Shown piece after piece: positions 188 to 63,125 of a DNA stretch of 64,000 nt. Location of the stretch: assembly GCA_947561395.2 (NCBI GenBank), contig OX387192.1, forward strand, positions 5,146,001 to 5,210,000, read 5' to 3'. This DNA comes from Buxus sempervirens (Eukaryota; Streptophyta; Magnoliopsida; Buxales; Buxaceae). Positions within the stretch are counted from its first letter, which is position 1. The number at the start of each line of letters is the position of its first letter. The translations under genes and the position numbers were made by a program. The notes under the pieces were generated by a model. It saw only the letters and a program-made list of their open reading frames with translations, did not search any database and was not told the origin of the DNA.

Positions 188-886
188 CTGTAGGATAGGG
201 GCGCAGGCAAGGAAGCGTTTCTTCTTTCTGAAATAGCAGTCAATCAGGGCCTGGTATATCTCTGCTAAGATCATAGGGGCCAACCTCTCACGCTCCCTAA
301 CCTGGCAGATAACAGAGATGAGAGCCAAGTCAACCTAGTTGTCACCCCGTGGAAAAAGCAACTGGTTGACCACTACCAGAGTCAATGCATTAAACCTAGC
401 ATCCTTGTCTTCACTCCATAGAAGTTTTTCAGTCCAAAAGGTCTTGGACAAGGTCAATAATGTATCAGAATTTCCTAAGTCCTTCTTCCCTATACCCAAG
501 AAAGTAGAAGCCTCCTTTTTGTAGCTAGGCTTTAGGGGTGGGTTCACAACTTTTTCAGAAAACCTTAGGCCAAGGATGGTTTCAATTTCTTCTATGGTAG
601 GAGTCATCTCTTTGTCATCAAAACGGAAGAGGTTCAGTTCAGGAACCCAGTGTCCAATCAAAGCTTCAATGATTTCCCACTTAAAGGGAATTTTAGGGAG
701 GTGTAGGATGTGGCCTAAGTGGATGGAATCCCAGCGAATCTCCTCATCAAGGGTCATGGAGTTAATCCATCTATCATAGAAGGAGTCCACAACATTGTAC
801 CTGGTGAAATTAGGAGGTTTTGATCTAACATGTTGTCTTGCAGGAGGAGATTCATCTGCAGAATAGAAAGGGGCGAAGGAAGCCAT
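188..886 (-). pseudogene. Plant mobile domain (DUF7745-type) protein, first exon, interrupted copy
   Basis: The minus-strand frame opening at 886 gives a 183-residue N-terminal part. Residues 29-108 read like the plant mobile domain: a WDSIHLGHIL helix, an FKWEIIEALIGHW helix near 69-80, and the hallmark MTPTIEEIETILGL at 94-107. Similarity continues past the end of the open frame (VRERERLAPMILAEIY, then FRKKKRFLACAPILQ) to a donor-like CAG|GTAAAA, with GT at 186-187, so the exon seems to end at 188. The frame is interrupted at least once, so this copy is probably not functional. Plant mobile domains occur in host proteins of the MAIN/MAIL type, which act in the nucleus in genome maintenance and silencing, and in copies carried by transposons. 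Which kind this is cannot be decided here. A TATA box and word-repeat promoter lie about 90-250 bp upstream. The AT-rich 1-187 looks like the following intron. The family call is from memory of the motif. Confidence 0.72.
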
Positions 887-959
887 GAAAGCACCAAGGA
901 AGCCAAGGAAAGCAGAAACGGAAGGCTTAGGGAGTTTTCAAACTCTTAAAAGTGTCACA

Positions 960-3851: not shown

Positions 3852-3976
3852 CAGCCAGATACCCTGAGTAGGCCTGGTTGTCAGTGCCAATACCCGGAGT
3901 AGGCCGGCATTGGATGACGATACCCTGAGTAGGCCATCATTTCAGAGTGTCCGATACCCTAAGTAGGCCGGAACTG
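3852..3976 (+). repeat. Hairpin array, loop ATACCCTGAGTAGGC, four different stems
   Basis: Four words share a 15-base loop of the type ATACCCTGAGTAGGC, with different flanking arms. Word 1: CAGCCAG (3852-3858) with CTGGTTG (3874-3880), 7 of 7 pairs including one G-T. Word 2: AGTGCC with GGCATT (3883-3911), six pairs. Word 3: ATGACG with CATCAT (3914-3940), five of six. Word 4: TCCG with CGGA (3950-3972), four pairs. The loop stays constant while the stems differ. Related copies are at 55269-55350, 57720-57838 and, inverted, 18508-18632. Confidence 0.8.
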
Positions 3977-4153
3977 TGTACATGGAGGTGTGGAGTGTCT
4001 ACTTGGCATATAAATTAATCAATGTAACCATATGCATGACATTGACCTTGTTTTGTGTTGTTATCGGAAGTACGTTGTTTTAAATTGTTGGTTATTTGCC
4101 GAAGCATGTCTTATAACTGTGTTAACTATTTCTGCATGCATGTGTCACTCGCT

Positions 4154-4538: not shown

Positions 4539-4675
4539 ATTAAAGCTGGAATTAGAGATTCCTAGGTAGTACGACCTTAGGAGACCCGGGGAAATAATGT
4601 GTGTACGCTAGATAGAACCATGAGGTTTAGAAGAGAGTTCCTAACTAATGTGGTGTTTGTTGTTTACAGGAAATC

Positions 4676-5480
4676 ATGGCTGGCAGAGGCCAACGCCCGA
4701 GAGCTATGGAGGAGGATATATCGCAGGAGCAGCCCCCTGCACCACCACGAGGAGCTCCGCCTGCAGTTGAGGATATTTGGGCTGTTGTTGGCTCACTTGC
4801 CAACCTCCTTGCCTTGGAGAGGGAGGAGAGGATGAGTCACACAGGAAATGGGAACGGGAATGGCCATAGAAATGGTCATGGAGCAGATGTGGATCAACAG
4901 CGGAGGGGAGAGGAGTTGTCCTTGAGGGACATTGATCAGTTTAGGAAGTTGACCGCCCCACCTTTCCATGGAGTTCCAGATCCCTTAGAGGCAGAGAGCT
5001 GGGTGGCCAGAATTGAGCGTATGTTCGATACCATGGATTGCCCAGAGGACAGGAAGGTGCGATTAGCCACTTTCACGCTAGAGGGCGAGGCCCAACATTG
5101 GTGGCAGTCTTTGAGGAGGCGGACTGCAGAGGGGATTCAGATGACATGGGACCAGTTTAGGCAGGTTTTCTACGAGTAGTATTTCTCTGCTGAGGTGAGG
5201 CTGCAGAAGGAGAGAGATTTTATGGATATCTCTCAGGGTTCCTTGACCGTGGCACAGTATGAGGCCCGATTCGCAGTTCTTTCCCAGTTTGCGCACCACA
5301 TCGTACATGACGAGCAGAGATGCACTCAGCATTTCGAGAGAGGGTTGAGGGCTGATATCAGGCGTATGGTCTCAGTATTGATGTGCACTAGGTATTCTTA
5401 CCTAGTTAGGAGAGCACTACAGGTCGAGAGGGAGATCCGAGATTCAGAATCAGAGCAGAGGGAGAGTGCAACATAGTGTT
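4676..5480 (+). pseudogene. gag capsid region of the Tekay-like element
   Basis: Starts MAGRGQRPRAMEED. The retrotransposon-gag fold follows: FRKLTAPPFHGVPDPLEAES, WVARIERMFDTM and LEGEAQHWWQSL, then TWDQFRQVFYE, and further on FMDISQGSLTVAQYEARF and FERGLRADIRRMV. These match capsid proteins of Tekay/Del chromoviruses, which assemble the virus-like particle. It is a broken fossil reading frame and is not annotated as a working gene. Confidence 0.92.
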
Positions 5481-6340
5481 CCAGAGCCACGGAGGATTCC
5501 AGATAGGGACAAAAGGCTGAGGCTTGATACTGGGGGTTTTGGGTCTTATGGAGAGAGAGACAGGAGGAGTTATGGAGGCTGTTCCAGCTGTGGCAGATTC
5601 CATATTCCGGGTCCCTGTGTAGCACCACCAGGAACCTGTTTCAGATGTGGTCAGCACGGTCACCGGGTGGCAGGATGCCCACACCCGGCTTCATATCAAT
5701 TGCTTAGGACCGTTAACACAATTTCTGGGGACAACCGGTCAGCTAATGCTCCACGATTCCAATATCCCAGGTCGGCACCAGCGTTACCAGCACCGCTGAG
5801 ATCACAGGGTCAGAGCAGCAGTGGATATCAGGGTAGGCTGGCACCCCAGAGGCAGAATGCACCACCTATACGCCCGCAGCAGCAGCAGACGAGAGTGTAT
5901 GCTGTGGCAGTGCAGGAGGATGAGGCAGAGAGGGAACTTACTGAGGAGGCTCGAGAGGAGGAGCCAAGTGCACCACAACTTGTTGGAGGTATTCTTTTTA
6001 TACATGGTAGATCGACTATATGTTTGTTTGATTCGGGTGCCTCTAGATCTTTTATTGCTCCTCCTTGTGCATTTCGTATTGGTCTGATTCCTACCACACT
6101 TGAGTCTGAGTTGCTTGTACACACACCATTGGGAGAGATGACTAGAGTACAGACTGTATTTAGAGACTGCATGATCCGGCTAGGTTCCTTAGAGTTGCCA
6201 GGGGACTTGGTGGAGTTGAGTTTTGGGGAGTTCGATGTGATTTTGGGCATTGATTGGCTGTTTAGGCATCATGTGAGTATAGATTGCCATCGGGGTACTA
6301 TTATGGTATGCCAACCTGATCAGCCTATGCACTGTTTCCG
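5480..6340 (+). pseudogene. Nucleocapsid zinc knuckle and aspartic protease region
   Basis: A CCHC zinc knuckle [14 protein letters not shown] is encoded at 5637-5678; it binds RNA. After a Gln- and Pro-rich linker comes the retropepsin-like region, with catalytic LFDSGAS (DSGA codons 6030-6041) and ILGIDWL. The order knuckle, protease, reverse transcriptase is that of Ty3/gypsy. Confidence 0.9.
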
Positions 6341-6474
6341 GTGTGAGGGACTAAGTACACGGATCAGTTTGGTTGCTTCCATTGAAGTTGAGGAGGCAGA
6401 GTCTGGGGCACCTAGTCTCTCTAGTGTGCCTGTGGCATTAGAGTTTGAGGACATCTTCCCTGAGGACTTGCCGG

Positions 6475-7450
6475 GCTTACCACCATCTAAAGAGGTTGAG
6501 TTCAGTATACGACTCTTACCTGGTACGGCACCGGTGTCCAAACCTCCATACCGAATGTCACAACCTGAGAACCAAGAGATGAAGAAGCAGTTAGATGAAC
6601 TGGAAGCAAAGGGTTTTATTAGGCCCAGTGTGTTACCATGGGGTGCACCAGTCCTGTTTGTCCAAAAGAAGGACGGGTCGATGCGGATGTGTATAGATTA
6701 CCGCCAGTTAAACTAGGTCACCATTAAGAATAAGTATCCATTGCCTCGAATTGACGATTTGTTCGACCAGTTGAGGGGAGCGTCTTGGTTTTCTAAGATC
6801 GACCTCAAATCGGGATACCATCAATTGAGAGTAGCGCCTGATGATATAGAGAAGACGGCTTTCCGCACACGGTATGGGCATTACGAGTTTCTGGTTATGC
6901 CATTTGGGCTGACTAATGCCCCGGCTGTCTTCATGAATCTTATGAATCGTGTATTTCATCCTTACTTGGACAGTTTCATGGTCGTGTTTATTGACGACAT
7001 TTTGGTGTATTCCCAGAGTAGAGAGGATCACATGCAACACCTCAGGGCAGTGTTACAGACATTGAGAGAGCACCGACTGTACGCAAAATTCAGTAAGTGT
7101 CAGTTCTGGTTGAGAGAGGTGAGTTTCTTGGGGCACGTGATTTCTAGGAACGGTATAGCAGTGGATCCAGCTAAAGTGCAGGCTGTTGCGAAGTGGCCTA
7201 GACCTTCATCTATGACAGAGATTCGTAGTTTCTTGGGGATGGCTGGATATTACAGGAGATTCATAGAGAATTTTTCACGAGTAGCAGCACCTCTATCCAA
7301 TCTCACTAAGAAGGCAGTGAAGTTTGAATGGAGTGATAAGTGTGAGACCAGTTTTCAGGAGTTGAAAAGTAAACTGTCTACAGCTCCAGTTCTGATTGTT
7401 CCATCAGTGAGTGAAGGATTTTCTATTTATTGTGATGCTTCACGAGTATG
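6475..7450 (+). pseudogene. Reverse transcriptase and start of RNase H, chromovirus type
   Basis: Motifs in order: [70 protein letters not shown], the catalytic FIDDILVYS (IDD codons 6990-6998), FLGHVIS and [15 protein letters not shown]. The RNase H start FSIYCDASR follows. The motif wording fits Tekay/Del chromoviruses closely. The region is broken and incomplete, and no integrase follows. Confidence 0.95.
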
Positions 7451-7937: not shown

Positions 7938-8189
7938 AACAAGTAACACATGCATGCACAAAATATTTATTTATATGCATATTTCTCAAGATAGCATGTG
8001 CTCAAAATCAAATCAGTAATGGCTAATTCATTTTCAGTTCATTTTCCAAATCAACATCAAAACAATAATTTCCGAACAAAACAAATCCTCACGATGATGT
8101 AACATCACAAGACTCATGAAAACAATACATCTCTGTAAAGCTAATGCCTGAGTCAAGGGTTGCTACCTTACGGCTTAAGTGCAAAGTTG

Positions 8190-8640
8190 AGATACACAGT
8201 CATCGTCTTATTGCTGATCACCCAACCGAGATACACAAAGGGCTAGCATGTACAATCCAATCAACTGCAACAACGTGAGAATACTAGACCAAGATACATG
8301 ATGGGTAGCCCAAATGACCACATCGAGATACACAACGGGTGGGATTGCTGCAACACAACCAGATACAAGAAGGCCTCGTTGAGATACACGATGAGAGCAT
8401 ATATGAAACAGGGTTAACTAAACAAAGTATTATTTTCACTCCTAGCTAGACTATGGATTCATACCAAGCTACACCCGTTAGTCACACAACTAAAGTACAA
8501 AAATCAAGTTATCTATGATATCCAAAACCACTTCACAATGTTCACAATTCATCTCAAATCAACTCCAAGATACATGGAGGAAAACAAACTCAAACTCAAG
8601 CTACATGAGTGAGAAATAACCATTCCGAGATATACGGAGG
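8190..8640 (-). repeat. Hairpin words around loop AGATACA in the 2081-40299 LTR
   Basis: Plus-strand words include CTCGTTG-AGATACA-CGATGAG (8375-8395, seven pairs with two G-T), CTCCA-AGATACA-TGGAG (8563-8579), ACTCA-AGCTACA-TGAGT (8594-8610) and TCCG-AGATATA-CGGA (8624-8638). Some other AGATACA words here (for example near 8230 and 8290) no longer pair well. The array lies on both sides of the worn GGATCC box. Confidence 0.7.
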
Positions 8641-11452: not shown

Positions 11453-14400
11453 TAATTAGGGTCCTTAATTTAAGTATTATAGGAGGGAACTAAGTATTTA
11501 GCTAATATTTAAAAATAGGGATGAGAATTAGCACGAAAATTTATTTAGAAATTCTTTAAGAGTAAAGTTAAGGGAAAAAAATTAGAAAAAGGGGCAAAGT
11601 GGGAAAGGTTTTCAATTAGAAGTGGGAACAAACCTATTAGAATTACTAATTAGGTGAGCCTATAAAAGGAAGGCTTTTAGGGAAGGTTTATGTAACGCCA
11701 CGGATCCGAGTTATGTAGAGAAACCATAACTCATCTCCGGAGGTTAATATATAACACAGGATCGCAATATCAAAGTGAAGGAAAAACATGAATGAAACAT
11801 TAACTAGATAATCAGAGTGCGCTACAAACCCAATTTAAATAATAATTCTAGCAATATAATTCTAAACTCACATAACCTGAGCAACTACCCACAGATATCG
11901 TCCTTTCCAAGAGCAGCTGAAAACAAAACAAAACAAAACAAAACGGAATGAGATACGAATATCCCAGTAAGCAGCACATGCATGCACAAATACATTTAGT
12001 TCAGTTCTAAAATATGCAACGGTTACAAAACATACACAGTGACGATAACACATATAATTCGAGTAATCCGACAACATTCCAACAATCCAATCGATATAAA
12101 TGCAGAAATCCATCATATAACCCCAATTAATAACATCGGTATCAAATCTCGAATCTAGCCATGAAATCACGTATAACCAGGTAACCATACATTGATGAAA
12201 TCATAATTTCAAATAACTCAGGGTTTCGAAATACTGGAGTGTTTATCATGGGCCACTCCGCACCAATAGAGTATTTTATCATGGGCTACTCTGCACTAAT
12301 AGAGTATTTTATCATGGGCTACTCCGCACCAATAAACCAGCGAATAAAACATATTATGTCAAATAAAGACAAATACCAACATTGGTCAATCTCATGTTGT
12401 AAAACCTTGGATTTTCCTAAACATATAATAAATAATAAAGGAATAAATTATAGAGGAAAATGATAAGAAATATAATAGTAGAAGAATTAAAGAGAGATAT
12501 AGAGGTTAAAATAGGAATTTAAAGATGAAGGGTATTTTGGTCATTTCAATTTGTTAAATTCATGAAAGAAAATAAGATAATTAGTTAGTAAGCCAAAAAA
12601 TTCAACTAGACAAAATCTTAGCTTAGTTAGATGTAAAATAATGAAATTAAGGCTTAAAGGGTGGGAAAAGGGCCTAATGGTAATTATACTATTTAGGGTC
12701 CAAAATATAGGCAATATGGGTGAATAATAAAAGTCTAAGTTCAATTTAAAATTAGGAATAAGATTAAGCACGAAAATTAATTAGGAAATCCTTTAAAAAA
12801 GAGTTAAATGAGTTAAATTAAGGAGAAGAGTAGAAGAGGGAATATACTAAGTATATTAGAATAAGCTAAACCTAATTAGAGTTGGACTAGTAGGGATGCT
12901 ATAAAAGAGAGGTTTAAAGAGTGTTTTAGGTTTTGAAAATAAGTTAGAAAGAGAGGAAAATTCGTGCATAAGTGATAGGAGCCAAAATAGAAGGAGAGAA
13001 GAGAGAAAAGAAAGGAGTAAATTAGAAAGAAGAGAAGTTACAGAGATGGCCGACCAGCCAACTTCGAACGCCGAGATAGGAAAATCCAACCGTTGGAATG
13101 GACTGAACTTTTATGGTTTTGTTCTACTCTTGGAAGACTTCAAACTAAACGGTGAAGATTTTAATTGGAGAAGTTTAAAGGGGTGCGGTAGAGCTTCAAA
13201 AAATGGCACAAGCGAAGTTTCTGAAAAATCTGGGTTCATCAAAAGGCAAGTAGCAAACCCTTGAAACTGGGGGAACTGCATGTTTTCACATGATTTTGAT
13301 GTTTAATAGTATTTTTTTGAAGTTGGATTTCATGAGAAAAGCTTACTTGTTTATAAAGAATTGTTTGGTGATTTATCTTTCTTTTGGAAATCAAGAAAAG
13401 GTTGATCATTGTGAGTTTAAACTTAAAAAGAAACTCAAAGATAAGTGGAAAGATGATGGGATTAGTTTAGGGTTATCCCAGAACAAGTTTTGGATGGAAA
13501 TTAGTTGTTTAGAATCAAAACAAGTAAATAGTATGTATAGAAAGTTTTAAAATTTTCGTAATTGAAGAAAAACAGTGTTATAGCTAGAGCGCTCAATACA
13601 TCGCTCAAGCGTTTCTTCAGGTGATAGGCCTTTGAATAATAACAGAACCTAAAAACCTAACCGCTAGAACAGTCGCCCAACCGACCCATCAAGCGACCAT
13701 CTGTCAGAAAATTCAAACCTTGGGATTTGTGCCCAAATTCAATTTCTAATATTTTTATTGAAATCTTAATGTTGTAACACCTGTGAATAGGGTAATTTGA
13801 GATGTAGGAAGCGGCGGAATTAAATTCGGATAAAAGGGTAATTATTTGGGACAATGAATGTAATAAGAATCAAAGAAGACTAGTTAAGATAAACCTATGA
13901 ATTCAAACCACTTTCATTAGGATTCTAGGTATAAGACCTAGTCTAAAAAATCATAATAGACCTAAATTAACTTCTGGAAAGAATCAATAACGTAATCCAA
14001 AGGTTTTAGAGATTTAGGGTATTAGTTGGTAAACAAGGATTTAAAAGTAGGGATTTTTAGGATGAACTAAAGTATAGGAATTGGAGTAGACTTTGTAAGA
14101 AATAAAGAATAACTTGAATATTGAATTAGAAAGATAAACTAAGTATGCTCACACTAACACAACTCAAATCTGAACCTTTTATTTAGAATTTGTGTATACT
14201 CTCATACTTTTCTTATTGAATGACCTGGAACTCTGTTTAAGAACTGTTCAATGGTTATTTTGAATATCTTTTGGTTGGACACCATGGTTTTGGAAATTAT
14301 TGCTGGACATAGCACTTGAGACATGGTTGTGATTATTAGTATAAGGTTTATCACTGAATATTGTATTTTTGAGTTATTCAAGGTTTTGATTGTGAGTTTT

Positions 14401-18507: not shown

Positions 18508-18632
18508 AGTTCCAGCCTACTCAGGGTTTCGGAACTCTGAAATGATAACCTACTCAGGGTTTCTTCATCCAATGTCGGTCTATTCCTCGGGTTTCGGCAT
18601 TGACAACCAGGCCTACTCAGGGTTTCTGGCTA
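18508..18632 (-). repeat. Inverted copy of the four-hairpin array (loop GCCTACTCAGGGTTT)
   Basis: In plus coordinates: AGTTCC with GGAACT (18508-18536, six pairs), ATGA with TCAT (18542-18568), CAATGTCG with CGGCATTG (18570-18602, eight pairs with one G-T), and ACCAG with CTGG plus T (18604-18632). The loop is the reverse complement of the one at 3852-3976, and stem order is kept. The arms have diverged but still pair. Confidence 0.78.
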
Positions 18633-18899
18633 CTCTACACCGGTCGTGGCAACACTCAAAGCTATACAATTACACCAATGAAACAATAACATTACATTAC
18701 TAAGATTAGACATGGATCCAAGACAAGCTAAACCAATAGCTTATAACCAAATCAATAAGTATTCAAAGTAGTTCAATACAAACCATGGGTCAATCATGAC
18801 CAAATCCACTCCATCATGGAGGATCACAAATTCATATCTTTCGGAGCAATTAACTTTCTGAAATAGTTTGTATAAAAAATCATTTATATTAAATAAAAC

Positions 18900-26930: not shown

Positions 26931-28423
26931 GCTATGCCCACTAGACTCTAAAACCAAAACCAACCGTGAAATCCAGCAAGCACAACTCATCACAGTCTCA
27001 ATCATATCATCCCGAGTACACGGGGCATCTCTGAGTACACAGAGGCATCAACATCCCAAGTACATGGGGCATCCCCGAGAACACGGAGGTATCACAACTA
27101 CCCAAGTACATGGGCATCACAATCCATCTCTCCAAGTACATGGAGGAAAACCAATTTCCAAACCAAAAACCAATCATTCTTAATCAATTTAAAATCCTCT
27201 TTCCGGAAAATCCGCATAAAACCGATTTGGTGCAAAGATTCCATAACCATGACAATCCCGTCAAAACCGCAGTGAAATCCAATGCTAATAAATCAAGGTT
27301 CAGCCGCATTCACAAAATCAGAATTTATAGACACATCTTTATTCCAATAATAAGTTTTACAAGCTCCTTTCATTAATTTCCATAGAATCCCTTTGAGAGA
27401 CAAAATTTAGGTAAAAGTGTTATTCTAGACTTAACCAGTAGTTTCGTATACTAAACATCAGCTTTGTCCAAAATAATTTTGTTTTAAAGGTTCTTTCCAA
27501 AATAGTGCATAAAATCCCCTTTTATAGTCAAAATTTGGTCAAACTGCCAAATCTCGGTTAAACCCGCAAATTTGCATATAGATATCAAAACTTAGTAGCA
27601 TTATTAATTTCAGACTTGAAACACTTATTTTATACTAAAACAGTAATTTTCTCTATAAGCATTACTCTAACTCGTTCTCTTTAACATAGGCCAAAGAGAT
27701 CTTCTACTAACACAACTAACTCCATATTAGGAAAACTCAATCTTTTTACTTGTGGTTAATTAGAACTATAATGGTATTTTCTATTGCATTTCCAAAATCA
27801 CAGATGAAATCTGATCCTAACAGAACCTTCACAATGATCTTTATCTTAACTTCCATACTCATAGCTCAATTAATTAGAAATCTGAAAAATACCCCATGCT
27901 TATTGAATAAAACCCCTCTTTTATATACTCATTTCAGCATCTATGTTTTCACACCAAAACCCCTCTCACTATCTCTAATTAAATTCTCAAGAATATTTCC
28001 AAGGAGGTTTTACAATTCAAAAATGCAAGTGTTGGATAGATTCTTAGAATTCATAAGAACAACTTTACTTAATTTGCTGATTTTACAACCCTTAATACCT
28101 GAATCATAACCCAAATCCAGCCTCACTTCTTTCCCAACAATCCCTTAATACTGCTGAATAATTCCTTAATTATTCTCCCACAATTAAAGATTAAAGTAGT
28201 TAATAAAGTACTGAACAAGAGCTGTTTTGTTTTCGAATATTCCTTCCCTTTTCTATACTTAAATTCCTCCATAATACCCTTGTATGAAACCACAGCTAGA
28301 AATCTTAATTAAATAATTCTAACATTTGTTTTAAGTATTCTAGAACATGTTTTAGACATTTAATCTATGAATTACAGCTTCTAAGAGCATATCCAAACAA
28401 GACTATACACAATTACATGAGCA

Positions 28424-32138: not shown

Positions 32139-32660
32139 CCATTCGCCAGGGTAATCGGGAATGGATACCTGTACGTCAAGGGTAATCAGGAATGGATACC
32201 TGTACGTCAAGAGTAATCGGCGTATAGATGCCTACGTCAAGGGTAATCGGCGTAGATGCCTAGCCACCATGTGTAATCGGTGAAGCTAGTTGCCCATTTG
32301 CTACAGGTAATCAGTAATGGATGTGTATTATTCCGGCACCAAGCAACATCAGTGGCCGATGCCCATTTGCTATGAGTAATCAGCAATGGATGCCTAAACG
32401 TCATGTGTAATCGGCGTATTAGATGCCTACGTCATGGGTAATCAGCGTAGATGCCTAGCCACCATGTGTAATCGGTGAACCTAGATGGATAAGTGTGGAT
32501 GTTGTTATTCTTGATTTATATTGTGGATATTACTCCATTTGCTATGGATACATATACTTCATGCGTCACCGGCGTACTAGATGCCTACGTCATGGGTAAT
32601 CGGCGTAGATGCCTAGCCACCGCGTATAATCGGTGAAGCTAGATGGGGTTATGTGTAGTA
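32139..32660 (+). repeat. Hairpin array, 14-base loop TCAAGGGTAATCGG, at least five stems
   Basis: Loops of the type TCAAGGGTAATCGG are bounded by arms that differ by word: CCATTC/GAATGG (32139-32164, six pairs), CTGTACG/CGTATAG (32200-32227, seven with one G-T), CTACG/CGTAG (32232-32255 and 32427-32450), CTAGCCA with TG, a two-base bulge and GCTAG (32260-32289), and CTAAACG with CGTATTAG (32394-32422, one bulge). CCATTTGCT with AGCAATGG at 32363-32389 makes eight pairs around a shorter loop. About thirteen words lie in tandem. The sister LTR keeps ATACG/CGTAT and CCAACG/CGTTAGG around the same loop (36719-36774). Confidence 0.82.
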
Positions 32661-32871
32661 TAATACTAAACCTCCTACATAACAAATGGTGAGATTGGAT
32701 GAAAGATTGTACTAAATGGATTAACTGTACACTGACGCGCAAGCATGCACCAATTTGTATGGCACTAAACTGTGATATTTGATTTATGATTTCAAATAAC
32801 CACATGTCATGATTTAACCGATTAATATATGCCTAAACTGTGTTTTCCCGTGCATGCATGTGCTGCTTACT

Positions 32872-33479: not shown

Positions 33480-34625
33480 ACTAAGTATCAATGCATGCAC
33501 AGAAATACAGTTATAACAGTTCTAAAACATGCAAAAGTTATAATCCATTAAGTTTACGATTAACCTCGGTTAATCCGACTAATCCCAGAAATACATCGTC
33601 AATCACATCTCATGTCAAAATCAAATTCGTAAAACAATATATATTGGGACTCATGAAGTTTGTCTATTTTGTGTGGCTAAGCACTAGTATTCCAAACAAT
33701 CTAGTCGAAATACTGCAACAGCTCGAACAAATCCAATTCATCGCCCTCATGGCGGAAAATACCCAAGGGACCTCACCCTCATGGTGGAAAGGGAGTTGCT
33801 GCAGCACTTCCCTCATAGAAGGCCTCTCTATCATGGAGGAAATGCATAAAGGAACCCTAGACTTATGTCCAACAAAATATACAAATTCTACTTACAACTA
33901 AACTGTGGATCCACACTAAGTCTCGCCCTAATAATTTGGCAAAAGTTATCATCTACTGTGTAAATTTATCATAAAACATGCTTATAGTATAGAAGCCAAT
34001 TTATAGTTATTAACAGCAAATTCAATTTCAAATACTCACTAAACCATCCAACAGTAAAAATTTCCAGCAACTTGTACATATAGTGAAGACACTGATATTT
34101 TAATCAAGACGGCAACCAATAAACATACGTAGAATCCTAAAATCAAATACATTTCAAATCAGAATGTAATTCAGCAATTCCATTGTGAGGTTAAATCAAT
34201 TTGATTTAACTTTCAAATGACCATCCCATTAGTTCAAAATTTTAGATTTGCTAACTCCTTACTAATTGGTTCTAATACCTATTATTTCTAATTTTTATTG
34301 TCATCACTAATTTATATAGGTTACTACAACTCTTGGATCTTAATTGACACTTGAATAATTCTATGGAGTATTATAATAGATTAACACCTAAGATATTCTC
34401 AAGGAAACCCAACCTCAAATTACAAAAATTTATCTCATGCCTTTAAAATTTTATCACACAAAAATCCCTTACATCATGCTACAGATTTATCCTCCATAAG
34501 AATTCTAACAAAGCTGAAGGTTAATTTGATCTTAGATGAACATATTTGAAAAGGCTCAAGAGGTTAAAATTCTAGTTTGGATCAAATACTAAATCAGCCG
34601 CAAGTTTCTTAAAAAATGCATGAGT

Positions 34626-38609: not shown

Positions 38610-39331
38610 GGATCCATAGAGTAGCTAGTAAATAAAATTGTTTTTTGGAGTTCTTATTCTATGTCATAGGCATTCTATCATCTCGAGGATGGTACCACTC
38701 TGGTATTGGTCGGTTGCTACGTTATCCACTCCGGTATCAGTTGAATCGTACATGCTAATTCACTCTGGTATCGGTTGAGTACTTCCGTCTAGCGTTGAAT
38801 AGCCTGTTCGGTACCGGCTGCTCCGCTTATAAGTCAGTTAGGTAGCATATTGGCACATGTCTATAGTAACTCCGTTTAAAATTCTATTAGTCCTGTGATG
38901 CCACCAGTGTGGTTTGCTGATTATCATGATTTATGTATTATTAATATTATTATTATCATTGATCTGGTTTAATCGCTACCTCATTACTTGTTTTATAAAA
39001 TTATGGACTGTTTTATAGCATGTATATTGCTACTTATTGAGATTTATATCTCACTCCAGTTTTACCCATTTTTCAGGTATTCTTGGAGAGGTCAACAAGC
39101 ATTGGGATATTACGTAAAGGGTAGCCAAATAGATGAGGAATAGTAAATAGTTCAAATGGTGCTTGTAAATGTTAAATTAATCGTAACTGAATATTATTTC
39201 ATTTTTCCACATTATGACTCTGATAATGAAATTAAGGAAAGTTTTAAATTATTCTGGATTTTAGTTGCTTTGGCCCACATACATAAACACCTCAGGGTTG
39301 GACAATTGATCCAGAACTGGGGAGTTCGATG

Positions 39332-39415: not shown

Positions 39416-42275
39416 CTTGAAAATTCTGAGTTTTTTGAAAATTTGCAAAATTCATACTAAGATCAAATCTCATCAAACCAATGCATCAAATCACTTCGAA
39501 AACATTTATAAACATCCTTTAGACATGTTAGATCAATTTAAAACAAATAAATCTTTGTTTACAAATCAAAACCAATCATTGAAACACACTTTGATAGATT
39601 CTGGGCAGAATAGAAACTTAACATTAAAACCCACGAAAACCTGGTATAGAACAACATGATTCACTTTGAAAATTATCTACTAACATGTGTGTAAATCAAT
39701 CATAATAAATATACAAACAATCATGCAGCGATTAAACCAAAACAAGGGTGTTACTTGCCTCTTTTCACAAAAATCCAACTCTAACTAGCAAAAACAGCAA
39801 CTCTACTTCTTCTCTTCTGTTTTTGGGCGTGATTTCTTCTTCTCAACACTCAAGGACACATCCAGCAAGGTCTCCTTCAATGCCACACGTCTAAAACAAG
39901 AGAAATAAACCTTCCATTCTCTCAAAAATTTCTATTTATACTTAAAAGTCTAATTCTAACCCTATTATGAGTTTTTACTCTTATAACCTCTCAATTAAAA
40001 TAACATGAACGTCCAGCCATGTCTAGATAGGTATTTTACTAACACCTAATTAAAATATGATAACCTACCTTGCCTATCTATCATTCTCATACACCTTCAC
40101 CAATTAAAACTCAAATAAAAGCTCAATTAGGAACTTACTTAGTTATTTATTCATCCTCTTCACACCCTTAACAGTATTTAGGCTTGATCTTCCTCTTCAA
40201 TAGCCTATCCATATCAATAAAATCATAATTAATCACTTAATCCAATATTTTCTCATTAAAGTAATTAAATTATTTAAAAGGAAAATTCGGGGGATTACAT
40301 CGCTTGAGTGTGATGTCGAGCGACCACAGTCAAATTTTTCTGAACTTTGGATTTTATGCCCAAGTCTATTTTTAATGATTTTTCTTGAAATCATAAAGTT
40401 GTAGCACCTGTAATTAGGTTAATTTGAGATGTGGGAAGTGGCAGAATTAAATTTGGATAAAAGAATATTAATTTGGAACAATGAATGTAAAGATGAACTA
40501 TAAAGACGTATTATGAAGTAATAAGTGGACTTAGCCTACTTAGAATTGGTTTTGGTTAATATACTCTATTCCTGAACTTCACTACAGACCTAAATTAACC
40601 TCTAGAAGAATTCAATATCAAAGTTAATGAGTTTTGACACCTTAGGTTATTTAAAGAGGAAATGTAGGCATTATTGAATAAAATATTGGGAATAACAATC
40701 AACTAGGGAATTAATTTTACTAAAACTTAATATATTGAATTAGTTAATTATCTAACACTTAGATATAAGTAATTTGAGAGTGTTCACATTAATAAAATAC
40801 TGTTTAGACATTTAATGAAAGAATTGGGCATATTTTGGTAAAGATAACATGTTTTCAAAGTTTGAATTGTGTTTTCTGTTTACTTTAGATTTGAGCATTT
40901 TCTTACATTCAACATTATATTTTTTAATATTTATATATGGTTTCATCGATAAGTGGGCAGAATCATTGTTTTTCCTCCGTGTATCTCGGAGTGGTTAAAT
41001 TCCTGTCTCATGTATTTTGGGATGAAATGTTTATGGTAAATTGAGAATTTATTTTATTGTTAAGCATATCTTACTTTTGGGACAAGTTATTATTAAATGT
41101 TTTTTTTGAGCTGTGTCTAGTAAGCAATACTTAGTATGGATCTGTAACGCCCCGGTTCCGAGTCAAATTTCCAGACCCGAGGAGTTATTGAATATGGCCA
41201 AAGCAACTAAAATCTAGAACAATTTAAAAACTTTTTACTAATTTTGTTATCAGAGTTAAGTGCGGAAACATGAAATAATGTTTAATAACAAGTAATCTTT
41301 AACATTTACAATTTTTTTCTTAAACTAATGTACTAATTGACAACTAAATGTACTACCCCTTTTACATACTAGCCCAAGCTCGTCATCCTCACCAAGAGTA
41401 TCTGAAAATGGGGAAAACTGGAGTGAGATAAAATCTTAGCAAGTAGCAATGTACATGCATTAAAACAGTCCATAATTTTTACAAAATAAGTCATGAGGTG
41501 TAACAATAAAACAAAATCATGATAAAATATTCAAAGCAATCATCAAACCAAACCACGCATGTGTGACATGACATGCAAAACCCCAAATTTTCAGCAAATA
41601 AATAAATAATAACTAAATCTGAATATTGGGTATGCCAATCAACTTGTCAAAATAAATTAGAGAATAAACTTAGAAATCTCGGAAGAAATCGAGTGAGTAG
41701 ATGTAAATTATCAAGGGAATGGTATTTTGGCCAATTCATATTAATTATTGGTAAATAATTAAATACATAAATTAAGTTATTATTAGACTTAAGAAATAAT
41801 GATAGATTTAAGTTGGGTTTAGATTGCCAATTAATAATTATTTTATAGCTTGATAAGTGGAATAAGGGCATAATGATAAATATAGTCGATTTGGAGTCTT
41901 ACGACAAGGAGATGAGAATTTTATAGAAGGATATTAATTATAATCACACTGATAGAGGAGATCCGGAGTTTGACGCAGATCTGACCATTAGATCGTGGTA
42001 GATCGAGGTGAGAATTAAATAAATCTAAAACTGTGTTCTAATTGGATAATTATCTAATGGGTGATGCATGTGCGTGGCATAGAATCATGGGGTATAAAAG
42101 AATAGTGTTTTATACCCTATGTAAGCACCCAAATTTTGATCAAACCAAAATATGCCAAGATAAATGGAAAATAATAAAAATTGGAGGAACATGATTCGTC
42201 CGAGTGGGCGGCTGAGTCACCTCAGCAGTCAACTCAACCAAAGAAGGGGAGAGGAAAAGGCAAATCTGAAAGATT

Positions 42276-42545
42276 TGCCGCAACCGTACACAATATGCGG
42301 TTGCTTCGCAACCGCATATGGTGTGCGGTTGATTTTTTCGGCCACCGCCCTCGCGAGCCAATCAGAGCAAGCGGCGCCGAAAATTCAACCGCACATACAG
42401 TACGGTTGCATGGCGCGTCAGTCTGCGCCTGCGCAGTTTGTCCCCTAATGATTGCTGAAAAGACGTTGCCAAACCGCACATACCCTGCGGTTTAGACCAA
42501 ACCGCACCTACTGTGCTGTTTTGACCAAATTGCACATAAACCGCA
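42276..42545 (+). repeat. Inverted word block AACCGCA/TGCGGTT upstream of the TATA box
   Basis: About six inverted pairs, for example AACCGCA with TGCGGTT around 42308-42330, AACCG with CGGTT (42390-42407), AACCGCA with TGCGGTT near 42473-42494, and AACCGCAC-TTACT-GTGCGGTT near 42540-42560. Here the stem is held constant and the loop varies. The block ends just before the TATA box, where enhancer or repressor sites would be expected. Confidence 0.75.
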
Positions 42546-43131: not shown

Positions 43132-45130
43132 AAGTTCGTAAAGACCCTTGAGAGGTAGACGAACACAGCCCCACCTGGTATTTTCTACCTTTTGGGTTTT
43201 CTGGGCCTGAACCGCACACACAGAGCGGTTTGGCCTAAACCGTACCGCATGTAAGCCCAGTAAACCCACCAATTTTGTATAATTAGTCAACCCCCAAACC
43301 AAATAACCAAATCCAATAAGCAGGGTTATCCAACGTAACCCCAAATGGGACTTGAGCTTTCATTAAAGCCCAAATTGGAATCTTGTGGGCCTTCCAACGG
43401 GGTCCACGTCAAACCAACATCACCTGGATAAAAGATAAAAATCAAATAAAAGAAAAGGGGACCCGCACCGTCTTAGTGGTCCCCACCTAGACCAATAAAA
43501 TGTGCATGCTGGCATAGAAGTGGGGTAAATTTAGAATTGAGTCAACTCACAAAACAGAAAGCCCAAGGGACCCGTCAAACCGACGGGTGGACTAGGTTGT
43601 CTACGGACTTCCCCGAACCGTAACCGAGCCCTTTCTCAGAATCTCAAGCTGCAGACTAAAACAGACATCCTTAGGGCACCAAGGTGTCTGCCTGCACCCC
43701 ATCAGGCAGTGGCGACTCTTAGCCCCCCAATTCTCCCCTCGCTTTCGCGCGCGCCCTCGCACCGGCACGACGTGCGCACACCCTAGAGGGGGTGCTAAGC
43801 ATATTTGTCCATCGTATTGTATTTTATTTGGTTTGGGTGATTAGACGGCCGAAGGAGAAAAACAAAAGGGAGAGAAAGACCAAAGAAGAAGAAGAGAAGA
43901 AGGAGAAGAAGGAACATCTGTCTTGGGTTCTTCATCACCTTAAGAGTGTTATTCTGTGTTTTAGATGAGAAGAAGGCTTTCTGTTCAGAGGAAGAAGAAG
44001 AACTCTCACAATCAGGTAGGTAGCACCAAGTTTTAACGTTCGTTTTGTGTTCTTGAGATTGATCGAATCGTTTGCATGTTTTTTATGATGTATCTATATA
44101 TCTTTAGTTTGTTAATCGCCTTATATGTATGTTAGAATTGCTTAGAACATGAAAAATCAGATTTTACACAGTCGAGTAGAAGTTTTTGGTTGAGCGCCGA
44201 CCTCTCTGTGCTTAGCGCTCCTAAGCGTTCCTCAGCACTCATTCAATAAATTAGAACGCCGTAGACCGCTAACTGACAGAAGGTTGGTGATCGATTTTGA
44301 ACTACCACTAACCCTAGACCGCCTAAGCAACCCTGAGCGGTCCTGAGCGCTCTAAATAGAAAATCCAATTTTTCGTATTTTAATCCCTATTTCAATCCTA
44401 AACCATTTTTAATAAATTTTAATCATTAAATAAGGTGTTTTGGGACCAAAATAAATTATCAAATACCCTGTTTCGGCAGAAAAATAAATAGGGAATTATT
44501 TTGGGAAATTAGTTGCCTAAACTTGGTCTTAAATAAGAAATTCTAAGTTTAATGCAGATAAACCTTTATAGATTAGACTAATTGATTAAGAGACATTAAT
44601 TTATATATCAGCAACCAGATTTCTACAAATAGAGACCTTATATCAGAAACCCAACCTAGTTGAACTACCTTTGATAAATTTTAAGTATCAGGACTATTAA
44701 GCCTTACTGGTAAGACTTTAAACCAGAAACTACCTTATCGACATTGGAGAAAGGACCCTATATACCTTTAGGCCACATTAGTTAATTGAATTGGGCTACT
44801 CTAAGTTTCTCTACTAAAATAACACATACCTTATTATACTATGTCACCATCCCTAAATTCTATCTGAACTTCTTATTAAATAGCAAAAACCATATTATCC
44901 CTAAACTTACGTAAATAGCAAGTATCTTATTACCCCTAAACTTTATCCTCTAAATTACTTTAAAACTTTACATAACCTTTAATTATCACATAACTAGACC
45001 GGGCCATGGTGATTACAAACTAACGAACTGAATTTGGAATAAGACTTTGGATTAATGATTGAAACATGAATCAACATCGATATAAACAACATTCTGATAT
45101 AATGGCTTGGTGGCCAATTTTATTAATAAC

Positions 45131-45358
45131 CTTCTTGGTGGCAGAGATGTATTGATTATTACCTGCTTGGTGGCAGAGATTATTACCCGCTTGGTGGCGG
45201 AGACCCTTAACCCACTTGGTGGCGGAGACCCTAACCCGCTTGGTGGCAGAGACCCAACTTGCTTGGTGGCAGAGATTACCTGCTTGGTGGCAGAGATAAC
45301 CCGCTTGGTGGCGGAGACCCAACCTGCTTGGTGGCAGAGATTACCCGTTTGGTGGTGG
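45131..45358 (+). repeat. Hairpin array, loop TTGGTG, stems CCGC/GCGG, CTGC/GCAG and others
   Basis: Ten words share loop TTGGTG followed by GAG. Fully paired words: CTGC/GCAG (45163-45176, 45280-45293, 45324-45337), CCGC/GCGG (45187-45200, 45301-45314), TTGC/GCAG (45259-45272, one G-T) and CCGT/GTGG (45345-45358, two G-T). Three words have one mismatch. The second pair swaps C-G for T-A with both arms changed. Further words CTCC-TAC-GGAG follow to about 45670. Frames across this region are chance products. Confidence 0.85.
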
Positions 45359-46121
45359 AGACATTACCTCCTACGAGAGAGATTTATTACCTCCTATGGA
45401 GCAGATGTATTTCTGATGGATTGCATCCTACAGGAGAGGTACCTCATGTGGGGGAGATGTGATTATACATGATTGCATCTTACATGGAGGATGGGTGTGT
45501 GAGTTACTACTGGAAGGTGAGGAAGCTATCTCCTACGGTAGAGGTAGATGCTAAGTGTTCACATCCTGCGGTAGAGTTATGCTGTCTCCTGCAGGGGGTA
45601 CCTGTAGTCTTAGAGATGTGCATTCTCCTACGGAGCATGTGTGGATACTATGTGTTTACGTCTTGCAGTAGAGTTAGACTACTACCTGAACGTTGGTTTT
45701 ATTACTAATACAATGATTGATTCGCTGATTAATGGATTGTCTTATACATATCTGACAAGATTGTTTATTTAAAAGGAAATATGGAAATGTCATAATTGAA
45801 CAGAACTGCTATGATTAAATGTAAACTGTTAAAGTGGAATATTATCAGATCATGAATAAAGGTAGAATTGTTCATAGGAAAACGCCAATTGAAATAAATT
45901 AGAAACCATGGGAATGTAGATTATAATACATGGTCCTTTAAATTGAAATGAAATGCACATGATAAACTTCCTTTAATTTGGGCATTGATTCAATGTTTGT
46001 TTGTATCGTGATTATTCATTTATCTTATTGACCGTAATTACTCGTCTATTTTACCGAGCATGAAACCACTGTTATTTTCTAGATATATAAACTGTTTTTC
46101 CTCATGCATGTGTTACCTACT

Positions 46122-46137
46122 GAGATATTCGTATCTC
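46122..46137 (+). promoter_or_regulatory. Acceptor hairpin GAGATA-TTCG-TATCTC
   Basis: Perfect six-pair stem with UUCG loop, preceded by CATGCATGTG and followed by a T-rich tract ending TTTTTTAAG. Confidence 0.72.
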
Positions 46138-46899
46138 ACCCCTACTTTATATTCTATTTTTTAAGTCATCTTGGAGAGGACGTCACGGGTTAGACTGGTA
46201 GTGGGTTGAAGTCTAGAAAATCCAGATGAAAAGAGTAGGACAATTTTATATAGTTGTATTTAATTTATTGGAATCATAATAGATGATTTAGTAGGATATT
46301 AAGAGTTAGTTAATTTGTAGTTGCCTTTCATTTGATTAATTAATGTAATAGGATGATCCATGTTCAAATGAATAATTTAAGCTTCCTAGCACTCTGATGA
46401 ATCTTAGTTCTTTATTTCTCTATCTTTTGAGCTGATTGTAATGTACCACAAGTTAATGCCTTGATCCGAGTAAAAAAAAATGACCCGGATTCGGGGCATT
46501 ACATGACAGGACTCATGAACTGAAACCACTTAATAAGCTACTCCTGTGCCCAAGTTCACCACCTCACGATTTACATGATAATGGAGCTGAGATACACGGT
46601 CATCCATTCCTCCATAAACCATCAATGCGGATCACCCCTGAGATACACAATGGGTTGGCGCGTACAATTCAATCAATTGCAACTATGCAAATAGGGGAAT
46701 ACCAATCCGATCATAGATATATGGATCCTGAACAAACACAGCTAATACCAGTGCATGTACAAGTCACAAGTGAACTATAAGTACGGCCAAAATATAGCTC
46801 TCAAGTGCGAGTCACAATTAAACTAAAACATGACCAATATAAAGCTCATGTAAGCCAATGTCTCATTAAAGCACACGGTGGTAACTCAAATAAACCAAT

Positions 46900-47277
46900 G
46901 CCGAGATACACGGCTAAAGACCAAGTCGAGATACACGACGAGTCAGGATTGCTGCAGCACGACCAGATACAGGAAGGCCTCGTCGAGATACACGACGGGA
47001 GCAAAAATGGGAAACAGGTTTAACTTACCGAGATAATTCCATTTCACTTCCTAGCTAAGTTATGGATCCATACTAAGTATTGCCCGCTAGACACAACTCA
47101 CAACCAAAAATATTCAGTAATAACTTGTCTCAAAATAGAATATGCTCAAACAATGATATAATTTCTCAGTCAACAATAAACATCTCTTCCCAAGATACAT
47201 GGGAGAGGAAATTAACTGTATGCATCTCATCTCAAGATACATGAGAGAGGAAATTAACCACTCCGAGATACACGGAG
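46900..47277 (-). repeat. Hairpin array, loop AGATACA, at least six stems
   Basis: Arms around AGATACA in plus coordinates: GCCG/CGGC (46900-46914), GTCG/CGAC (46925-46939), CGTCG/CGACG (46981-46997), TTCCCA/TGGGAG (47187-47205, one G-T), TCTCA/TGAGA (47230-47246) and CTCCG/CGGAG (47261-47277). All pair. A TATGGATCCATA box at 47063 lies in the middle. The loop is related to AGTACA of the 24322 LTR. Confidence 0.85.
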
Positions 47278-55268: not shown

Positions 55269-55350
55269 CAGCCAGAAACCCTGAGTAGGCCTGTTGTCAA
55301 TGTCGAAACCCTGAGTAGGCCGTCATTTCAGAGTATCCGAAACCCTGAGT
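55269..55350 (+). repeat. Hairpin words, loop AAACCCTGAGTAGGC
   Basis: CAGCCAG with CTGTTG (55269-55296, partly paired), AATGTCG with CGTCATT (55299-55327, six of seven) and TCCG with a weaker right arm near 55336. It has one word fewer than the array at 3852. Confidence 0.68.
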
Positions 55351-55729
55351 AGGCCGAAACTGTGTACATGGAGGTGTGGAGGTCGCTCTAGCGTGTTAAT
55401 TAACCAATCAAATAATTACATGACATTGACCATTGTGGGATTTTTGTTTATCTAGTTTTAGATATATTATTGGATTGTAGTAGAATTGCTTTTTTTTCTC
55501 GGAACGTGGATATAATGATATTGTTTCTTTGAAACCAATTGGAATTTTGTTGACAAATGTATTCCGATTTTAAATACGTACGGATTTTCATTATCTATAT
55601 CCTTGTATCAAATAAATTACTAGGGGTTTTCGTCAGTTCCATCGAGTTATTGCCTGCTTACTCGTGTGATTATTCGACTCATATTTTACAACTGGTAAAT
55701 TGTATTTGTGCATGCATGTGCTGCTCGCT

Positions 55730-57719: not shown

Positions 57720-57838
57720 CAGCCCGTGTTCCTTGGTAAGCCGGGTTGATAATGCCGAAACCCGGAGTAGGCCGACATTGGATGACAAAGTTCTTTGGTA
57801 GGCAGTCATTTCAAAGTTCCGCGTCTATGTTGACCGGA
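57720..57838 (+). repeat. Hairpin words with compensated stem CAGCCCG/CGGGTTG
   Basis: CAGCCCG (57720-57726), 15-base loop, CGGGTTG (57742-57748): seven pairs with one G-T. Against CAGCCAG/CTGGTTG at 3852 the A-T pair has become C-G on both arms. AATGCCG/CGACATT (57751-57779, six of seven), ATGAC/GTCAT (57782-57809) and TCCG/CGGA (57818-57838) follow in the same order as at 3852. Confidence 0.8.
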
Positions 57839-59439: not shown

Positions 59440-60540
59440 ATAATGGAGCAAGGTGTCTCCCAACCCTAAGGAGCAAGGTGCCTTCAAAAAATCAAGACAT
59501 AAGGAGCAAGGCATCTCCCAAGACATAAGGAGCAAGGTGTCTCCCCAAAATTGAAGAACTAAGGAGCAAGGTGTCTTCCAAAATTGAAGACTTAAGGAGC
59601 AAGTATCTCCCAAGACTAAAAGGGCAAGGCGTCCCTGGAGCAAGGCGACTCCAAAACTAATGGAGCAAGGCGTCTCCCAACCACCGAGGGCAAGGCATCC
59701 CTCAAGACTGAAAAGGAAAGGCGTCCCTGGAGCAAGGCGACTCCGAAACCACCGAGAGCAAAGGCGTCTCTCAAGACTGAAAGGGCAAGGCGTCCCTGGA
59801 GCAAGGCGACTATGAAACTAATGGAGTAAAGCATCTCCCAACCACCAAGAGCAAGACGTCTCTCAAGACTAAAAGGGCAAGGAGTCCCTGGAGCAAGGCA
59901 ACTCCAAAACTAGTGGAGCAAGGCGTCTCCCAACCATCGAGAGTAAGGCATCTCTCAAGACTAAAAGGGCAAGGCGTCCCTAGAGCAAGGCGACCCCAAA
60001 ACCAAAAGGGCAAGGCGTCCCTGGAGCAAGGCGATTCTGAAATCACAGAGAACAAGGCGTCTCTCAAGGCTAAATTGAGCAAGGTGTCTCCAAAGGTTGA
60101 AGACCTCAGGAGCAAGGCGACTCCTAAGCTAATGGAGCAAGTGTCTCCCTAGATTGAAGCCCTAAGGAGCAAGGCGTTTCCCACATCGAGCAAGGCGTCT
60201 CCCACATCTAAGTGACACGGAAATGTGTCCCCTAAGGAGCAAGTCGTCTCCCACAATCAAATGACATGGAAATGTGTCCCCTAAGGAGCAAGGCGTCTCC
60301 CACAATTGAATGACACGAAAATGTGTCCTTAAGGAGCAAGGCGTTACCCAAGACTGAAGGACATGGCGTCCTTGGAGCAAAGAATCTCCGAACCATAAAA
60401 AGTTGAGGCCAAAGCCTCCCGGTTGAATAACAATGAGCAAAGACATGAAAAGAAGCAAGGCATCTTCTGAGATTGAAGGACAAGGTGTCCCTAAGGAGCA
60501 GAGCGTCTCCCAATACTAAGAAACAAAGTGTTCCCAGAGC
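59440..60540 (+). repeat. 1.1-kb hairpin array, loop CAAGGCGT, stems GGAG, AGGG, GAGGG, GAGAG, AGAAG
   Basis: Tens of words sit in the 3' region of the Tat-like element. Loop CAAGGCGT or close variants lie between arms GGAG/CTCC (for example 59662-59677), AGGG/CCCT (59782-59797), GAGGG/CCCTC (59686-59703), GAGAG/CTCTC (59754-59772) and AGAAG/CTTCT (60451-60468). AAGGAC/GTCCTT at 60357-60373 encloses ATGGC. Spacers such as AAGACTGAA recur. Many minus-strand frames here are by-products of the repeat. Tandem repeats in the 3' region of Tat/Ogre elements are known; the stem-changing pattern is what I add. Confidence 0.82.
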
Positions 60541-61894: not shown

Positions 61895-62060
61895 CGTGCG
61901 CGTCCGCATTGTATCTGCAGACATGCCTCGTCTGCACATACAATGCGGATCCGATCTTATCCGAATCGACAGCTGGCAGATTCACAGCGATCGCGCACGT
62001 TTTTAATGTGATTCGCACTTAAAGTGAGATCAGGCCAATCCGCACTATAAGTGCAGATCC
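61895..62060 (+). repeat. Inverted word block ATCCGCA upstream of the TATA box
   Basis: Words GTCCGCATT, GTCTGCAC, AATGCGGATCC, ATTCGCACTTAAAGTG and ATCCGCACTATAAGTGC fill the 170 bases before the TATA box. The vocabulary, ATCCGCA, differs from AACCGCA in the 42120 LTR and from GCCCGTA at 26715 and 1003. Confidence 0.7.
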
Positions 62061-63125
62061 GGAATTTTTGCCTATAAATAGAGGCCAACAGCCATTGTTT
62101 GGGGGATCTCCTTTTCCCCTATTGTTACCCTATCTCTCTGGCGACTTGCAACCATTTGAACCTCCTCTCCCTCATCTAAGCTTTTTTTATACCCAAAATA
62201 CCGTTGGCTCTCCCTCTCCCTACCCTTCTCCTCATTTCCACTCACAAAAGAATAAGAGGAGGAGATTTTTCGAGGTCAAAAAGAGGCTTTCAAGCTGTTG
62301 TTATTACCAACTGGGGGACCACATCACTTCAAAAAGAGAAGGTAATACCAAGGTGAGCCTTCTACCAATCTTGTATTTCATATATGTAAAAATCAAGTCA
62401 TTATAAGCAAGTTCTCCTTTTAATTATTTTGAATCTTGTTCTTTGTCGTGTCTTCTCACCATTTCTTTCTATTTTGCACGCTATTGGGGTCCCCATAGTA
62501 AGGGGGACCCCTCACCCAAAATATGGGATGAGAGAGCCTTATAGGTAAAAAGAAATAAATTATTGTGTAAATGGGTTATCTTTAGCTTCCTTTATTAATT
62601 CATTTTAAAAGAGGGGATTGTCCTCTTATTAGTGCATCCGCTGTATCCCTAATATTCTTCCCCCCTTTCCCTTCTTTAGCTTTATTTTCTCTCATCTCTA
62701 AGTATGTTTGCACGATGTTAAGTGGGTTATATCACATGCATGTTTGCTTGTAGCTTTAGTAGGATCTATAAGTAAGAGGTAAGCATCACATATGCACCCA
62801 CTCGCACATGGTGTCTAGATGACTCAGCCAATGGTTTGTTTCCTTCCATGCATTTGCAAGTGTTTGCACAAATAGGGATACTAACGGATGAGGTTTCTAT
62901 TTATCACATTTAGCACATCTCCTAGTAATATGCATGGTTCTCCGAATATCTGTCTTGCTCATCCACTATTTTCATGAGTCCTTTGAATCCTTACTGGCAT
63001 GCATGATGATTGGTATTTTGTTCCATTCATATGTTAAGTTATGCATTTGTTTGGTCGGTTATATGTATATATGGATGCACGGGTGAAGAAAGTATGTTTG
63101 GATAGATAAAGAGAGTATGAAACCA

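Follow-up and report, generated by a model that had tools for sequence, protein, structure and literature searches.

Setting of the array

The window, as the whole 64-kb stretch of DNA analysed here is called, holds remains of LTR retrotransposons, from which it is read as plant DNA; its G+C content is 37.9% with no N, and every count given below refers to this one window. Ten hairpin words with the loop TTGGTG form a tandem repeat in an LTR left by an old plant retrotransposon, and a conserved LTR core lies downstream of them (Table 1). This is one of at least ten LTRs of the window that share a 3' core, TGAGATATTCGTATCTCA, for which ten sites were found at no more than 4 mismatches, five on each strand; a further five diverged cores were spotted by eye. 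The array starts 990 bases and ends 763 bases before the core at 46121.

The initial annotation had assigned the array to an LTR, and this is correct, since on both sides of it the sequence is collinear with a second LTR, on the minus strand (about 49928 to 47505, the limit near 49928 being placed at the break of homology), and the two have the same LTR end. Their identity amounts to 402 of 563 columns near 43982-44534, 70 of 83 at the core and 21 of 23 at the end. For the LTR with the array no 5' end was found, no primer-binding site follows its 3' end, and there is no gag, protease or reverse transcriptase beside it, unlike the copy with its core at 4153. In that copy the LTR end GGGGCGTTACA comes after the core and is followed, four bases further, by TGGTATCAGAGCC, which we take to be an initiator-methionine primer-binding site; gag, protease and reverse transcriptase are found at 4649-7448 (Pfam matches to PF03732, PF08284 and PF00078), while Ty3_capsid (PF19259) scores under its cut-off. 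With this LTR end, primer-binding site and set of proteins, the copy is an LTR retrotransposon of the Ty3/gypsy type.

The LTR core, present at ten sites (e.g. 46121-46138), is itself a hairpin, GAGATA-TTCG-TATCTC, which in one copy, at 32871, reads GAGAC-ATTC-GTCTC. Rfam 15 gave no match at the gathering score on either strand of the 64 kb. An open frame at 335-934 (minus strand) matches DUF7745 / plant mobile domain, PF24924 being above its cut-off and PF10536 below.

Exon-like and intron-like features

A script found a signal resembling a 3' splice site, namely a T-rich tract with CAG or TAG, after the LTR core in 11 of 15 copies, including those with cores at 4153 (+), 47993 (-), 33463 (-) and 7955 (-). 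A phase-2 open frame after this tract is the longest frame in seven of the 11, and in four of the 11 it ends in an acidic tail rich in tyrosine or phenylalanine (e.g. EEDYYYRP); this frame has the look of an exon that codes for protein within the LTR. The donor-like AGGTAGGT is present upstream of the hairpin stretch in two related LTRs, at about 49440 (-) and at 44014 (+); donor-like and acceptor-like sites together would make the hairpin stretch a candidate intron.

Table 1. Positions of the LTR parts and hairpin sets in the window
Feature	Position	Strand	Remarks
LTR stretch with the TTGGTG array	43982..46503	+	homology to the minus-strand LTR at about 49928-47505 starts at 43982
Donor-like CAGGTAGGT in this LTR	near 44014	+	
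Eleventh TTGGTG word, TGGC-TTGGTG-GCCA	45103..45116 (loop start 45107)	+	missed in the initial annotation; fully paired, without the GAGA flank of the unit
TTGGTG array, ten words	45131..45358	+	tandem unit of about 21-24 bases
LTR 3' core TGAGATATTCGTATCTCA of this LTR	46121..46138	+	
LTR end GGGGCATTACA of this LTR	near 46503	+	
TGTATCT set, nine words	46585..47277	-	dispersed, not tandem; LTR sense taken as minus
Zone homologous to the TGTATCT set, seven TGTATCT words	8185..8579	-	one word with at least 4 inner Watson-Crick pairs
Single TGTATCT hairpin, CTCCG/CGGAG	40975..40991	+	further copy
TGTACT set, five exact words	27011..27144	-	all paired
Set with loop CAAGGCGT or close	59445..60510	listed as +	element strand not assigned; stems GGAG/CTCC, AGGG/CCCT, AGAG/CTCT, GAAG/CTTC
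Set with loop YATGAGG	33740..33845	-	stems CTTC/GAAG, CAC/GTG, CGC/GCG
Hairpins round GAAACCCTGAGTAGGC	3858..3985	+	
Further sites of the GAAACCCTGAGTAGGC hairpins	55275-55360, 57720-57830	+	
Further site of the GAAACCCTGAGTAGGC hairpins	18510-18640	-	
Hairpins round GCCCATGATAAA(A)	12242..12334	-	GAGTA/TACTC twice, GAGTG/CACTC once; by eye

The TTGGTG array

All ten TTGGTG words are present with the arms quoted in the initial annotation, their loops starting at 45135, 45167, 45191, 45216, 45240, 45263, 45284, 45305, 45328 and 45349. Seven of the ten pair fully, as had been reported, when G-U is allowed (it is needed in CCGT/GTGG, twice, and in TTGC/GCAG, once), and only five do so by Watson-Crick rules; the remaining three have one mismatch each, again as reported. 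Whether the eleventh word, at 45107, is counted with the array is a matter of judgement, because its GAGA flank is missing.

The loop had been set apart as the unchanged part of the unit, but it is not the only one: all ten words also agree in A at column -6, C at -5, G at +6 and GAGA from +9 to +12, making seven equally invariant columns outside the loop, three of which (+10 to +12) lie outside the hairpin altogether. Two-sided change of the stems, on which the earlier reading was built, is confined in the ten words to one of the four pairs (-3/+8). Column -3 shares 1.00 bit with the unpaired column +13 against 0.61 bit with its partner +8, as tandem duplication of two sub-types would give; the sub-types seen are CTGC..GCAG-AGAT and CCGC..GCGG-AGAC, and there are higher-order periods of 44 and 65 bases. 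Differences from CCGC/GCGG fall in CpG in 14 of 16 cases and are transitions in 15 of 16, and CpG in the window stands at 0.61 of expectation. CpGs face each other in the CCGC/GCGG stem, and therefore decay on the two arms turns C-G into T-A without selection. The alternation of CCGC/GCGG with CTGC/GCAG amounts to one CpG-type change on each arm. For the most part it fits, short of proof, the duplication of two sub-types set apart by transitions of the CpG type.

When the 3' arms were permuted among the ten words, the number of full pairs was equalled at p 0.086 by Watson-Crick rules and at p 0.152 once G-U is allowed, and the number of paired cells at p of about 0.057. Out of 500 shuffles of the seven distinct words, the observed value is reached 107 times for paired cells, 98 times for the covariation score, 345 times for the number of two-sided pairs and 481 times for the pair types; the structure slid by -3 pairs better than the one proposed (96.4% vs 89.3%). 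When the word at 45107 is added, the corresponding numbers are 4, 3, 131 and 120 of 500, and permutation p lies between 0.006 and 0.017. A stem of 4 bp that closes a loop of 4-8 turns up in 24% of shuffled 24-mers with the composition of the unit, or in 40% when junctions are counted. Folding windows over the array (starting -1050, -975, -900 and -825 from the core) have sense z-scores of +1.0, +0.9, +1.5 and -1.0, and 150-nt windows across the ten LTRs show no general excess of fold stability.

The array alone was dropped as a proof of covariation, since its shuffled arms pair about as well and only one pair changes on both sides. The initial annotation had itself named equally good pairing in shuffled arrays as evidence against its reading, and this is largely what the ten named words give, the shuffles pairing nearly as well. 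Its idea, that the loop stays constant while the two arms of the stem change together, has little support in these ten words, weak support in the array when the word at 45107 is added, and support in other hairpin sets of the window; covariation does not follow from the array but has fair support in the hairpin sets of neighbouring LTRs.

Hairpin sets in related LTRs

A single loop word, TGTATCT, is carried in related LTRs by stems that differ yet are paired. The nine words of the main set have unlike surroundings within 46585-47277, with no tandem arrangement, and their stems include GCCG/CGGC, GTCG/CGAC, CTCCG/CGGAG, TCCCA/TGGGA and TCTCA/TGAGA. An alignment was made of all 17 words of three homologous LTR zones, regardless of stem, the other 8 of 25 occurrences lying elsewhere; in this alignment the loop is constant by choice and the stems are unselected. 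Of its 80 cells 80% are paired, there is two-sided change at all five pairs, and the two-sidedly changed cells number 22 against 7.6 in shuffles, with slid structures giving from 0 to 5. None of 500 shuffles reaches the paired cells, the changed cells or the covariation score, while 66 reach the number of two-sided pairs and 65 the pair types; as relatedness misleads the last two, weaker, measures least, the evidence is good, not final. At least four inner Watson-Crick pairs are present in eight of the 17 words, and nine are without. Hairpins that face each other in two LTRs, as read from one automatic alignment with large gaps, have ACTCA/TGAGT opposite TCTCA/TGAGA and CTCCA/TGGAG opposite TCCCA/TGGGA.

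The TGTACT and CAAGGCGT sets resemble the TGTATCT set in having a constant loop on differing, paired stems. Those of the TGTACT set are, on the plus strand, CCCG/CGGG, TCTG/CAGA, CCCA/TGGG (twice) and TCCA/TGGA. The CAAGGCGT set has two-sided change at three of four pairs, with ten such cells against 3.1 in shuffles (reached by 0 of 500), and 49 of 500 shuffles reach its two-sided pairs and 262 its pair types, all for 32 of 63 fuzzy matches that were chosen by eye in hairpin register and whose words are related by tandem copying; the 31 left out are spacer sites, other registers and words with loop indels. Round GAAACCCTGAGTAGGC, the first hairpin has the stem CCAG/CTGG in two LTRs and CCCG/CGGG at the same place in a third, and in a fourth it has lost a base.

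Several other repeats lie nearby or in other LTRs. Words like CTCCTACGGTAGAG recur just downstream of the TTGGTG array, at 45521-45670 (+), with ten fuzzy matches of which few are well paired, and the folding window there has a sense z-score of -3.3. Another LTR has tandem words round GTAATCGGCGTAGATGCC at 32148-32646 (+), whose short stems include CACC/GGTG. Palindromes that recur with an unchanged stem (AACCGCA/TGCGGTT, TCCGCA-like) were seen by eye upstream of TATA-like boxes at 42300-42540 (+) and 61900-62070 (+).

Exchange of loop words

The related LTR zones were aligned on the anchors ATGGATCCAT, GCAGCAATCC, CCAACCCAT and ATCATGTAA and their variants, not all of which occur in every zone. 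Over whole zones, TGTATCT is found in two of them (9 and 7 copies), TGTACT in one (5 copies) and GCAGGTGCGG or GCAAGTGCGG in one (3 copies); a shorter LTR zone has one GCAGGTGCGG, and a stray TGTACT or TGTATCT occurs once each in three of the anchored zones. Beside the same anchors, TGTATCT, TGTACT and GCARGTGCGG face each other in related LTRs, except after CCAACCCAT, where the GCARGTGCGG zone has no facing word. In that zone only one well-formed stem can be read, CCGC-TGCAAGT-GCGG. A change of recognition would explain why loop words change jointly. The LTR with its core at 39040 has a word of its own, GGTATYRGTTG or close to it, three times in the same stretch (38670-38830, +).

Scans of the window and of other collections

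Distinct perfect 4-bp stems were counted in 266 clusters of 6-mers recurring at least 4 times within 450 bases. Three of the clusters have at least three distinct stems by the true pairing rule; when pairing is redefined wrongly, as A-C with G-T, as A-G with C-T or as mirror, not one of the 266 does in any of the three cases. A wider 6-mer scan gave 9 of 20394 tests by the true rule against 0, 0 and 0, all nine from a few arrays. The summed excess above permuted arms is 68.1 by the true rule against 42.0, 26.0 and, for the mirror rule, 58.6, which does not set the true rule apart, so that it is the variety of stems, and not the total, that stands out. By number of distinct stems, counted on both strands, AGATACA (TGTATCT in LTR sense) comes top of the 8208 7-mers with at least 6 occurrences, 8 of its 25 occurrences being on stems of at least 4 pairs, six of them distinct, against a background of 0.72%. 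AGTACA (TGTACT in sense) comes top of 3906 6-mers, with 6 of 37 on stems and five distinct, and TTGGTG, whose copies are tandem, is third, with 6 of 63 and three distinct; these counts overlap between scans, several k-mers hitting one array. G-U and A-C mismatches stand at 9:6 in the TGTATCT set, 3:2 in the TTGGTG array and 7:3 in the CAAGGCGT set, numbers too small to reveal the strand of the element.

In viral contigs the TTGGTG array word was matched in 36, once in each, and these matches are read as chance because none had a second. The LTR core pattern had no match in viral contigs or in genome contigs of other collections, and the word of the CAAGGCGT set matched eight outside contigs, again once in each. 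Four stretches in outside collections fit the pattern of the reverse transcriptase protein, none of them confirmed. These scans of other collections thus yielded no relatives.

Proposed explanation

The reading favoured here, to which we give a probability of roughly 45%, takes the TTGGTG array to be a tandem repeat whose stem alternation comes mostly from its two sub-types, and the hairpins of the related LTRs to be a multi-copy structured element with loop-based recognition, in which the stems are scaffold. The hairpins would most likely form in the LTR transcript and would show many copies of the loop to some binding partner, for instance Gag of the element or an RNA-binding protein of the host. 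The stems, as scaffold, would be free to drift provided that both arms change; the loop word would be held constant and be replaced at several places together upon a change of partner. The first candidate for a function would be to select or package the RNA of the element itself. A narrower proposal, that the LTRs bear a multi-hairpin identity tag, is doubtful: here each element would have its own loop word (TGTATCT, TGTACT, GCARGTGCGG, TTGGTG, CAAGGCGT and others), read by its own Gag or a host protein and switching in concert, on stems that drift by paired changes.

By what means related LTR retrotransposons that share a large plant genome choose their own RNA is, to our knowledge, an open question. 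An identity tag, if true, would let related elements of one genome tell their own RNAs apart, and a family-specific loop word on covarying stems would be a concrete candidate for such a choice. Loop words of this kind would also help to locate functional RNA in LTRs that vary too much for alignment, and the many hairpins of each element would serve as natural replicates for separating structural selection from template-switch copying.

Alternative explanations

The strongest competitor, which we regard as a real possibility while stopping short of even odds, takes the TTGGTG array to be an ordinary tandem repeat with a short hairpin by chance, shaped by two sub-types, methyl-CpG decay on both arms and local duplication, with no structure in the array regardless of its neighbours. 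The tie of column -3 to +13 above that to +8, the predominance of CpG differences and transitions, the 44- and 65-base periods, the shuffles, the 24-40% rate of chance hairpins per unit and the fold z-scores all speak for it. Less easily reconciled with it are the eleventh word, which has a very different but paired stem and lowers the shuffles reaching the observed values to 3-4 of 500, and the presence of hairpin sets in related LTRs.

Copying templated by the hairpin had been suggested in the initial annotation and seems unlikely. In it, one arm would serve as the template from which the other is rewritten, with no selection, when DNA synthesis or reverse transcription switches template. 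The process is known, as far as the available parts of these sources go, for RNA genes (PMC8794818) and for yeast quasi-palindromes (PMC3820800), and it agrees with mismatches that show no strand bias. It could keep the stems paired, yet the loops stay unexplained: on its own it accounts neither for the constancy of the loop word nor for the fact that another LTR has its own word beside several of the anchors. That the palindromes act as DNA, as sites of a duplex-binding protein or as cruciforms, in the way that repeated palindromes of promoters may, is improbable. A protein reading duplex half-sites should hold the stems constant, which counts against this account. The palindromes repeated upstream of TATA-like boxes (42300-42540 and about 61900-62070; by eye) do lend it some weight, being placed much as in Sireviruses (PMC2829016, available text), but they keep the stem AACCGCA/TGCGGTT and vary the middle, and the TGTATCT, TGTACT and CAAGGCGT sets do the reverse.

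Comparison with known systems

A full-text literature search, from which subscription papers were mostly outside, found no description of loop-constant, stem-variable hairpin sets in plant LTRs. The closest case found in plant LTRs is that of the repeated motifs of Sireviruses (Ty1/copia), which are, in the accessible part of PMC2829016, palindromes built on an unchanging CGG-CCG core and placed upstream of the TATA box. Like the sets of the window, they are many short palindrome copies in plant LTRs, with a word that differs from element to element. In one LTR of the window, inspection by eye showed TATA-like boxes ahead of the hairpin stretch. The Sirevirus stem is constant, however, whereas the TGTATCT, TGTACT and CAAGGCGT sets have a constant loop and differing stems; no constant CGG-CCG stem is found, the stems varying and CCGC/GCGG occurring in two of the ten words of the TTGGTG array. 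Because the constant part is reversed, the loop-constant hairpins are not classed with the Sirevirus motifs.

Conservation in the long R regions of LTRs has been linked to stem-loops (PMC3601003), for which the portion of that paper available describes no common-loop sets, unlike the LTRs of the window. In template-switch hairpins, according to what is accessible of PMC8794818, both arms change and the stems stay paired, as here; this accounts for the arms but not for a loop shared by separate hairpins. The proposed loop-based recognition has a precedent in packaging signals. Assembly of the coat protein of satellite tobacco necrosis virus depends on the loop word, whatever the stem (PMC3593212, in part), and enterovirus has dispersed packaging-signal stem-loops (PMC7793301, in part). 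Those systems are virus genomes with a shown protein partner, and the LTR hairpins, with a candidate partner only, are in a single LTR stretch; in both, going by the same partial texts, the stem-loops are numerous, have a common loop motif and carry stems whose sequence is of little account, and the TGTATCT set shows this very trait of a common loop on variable stems.
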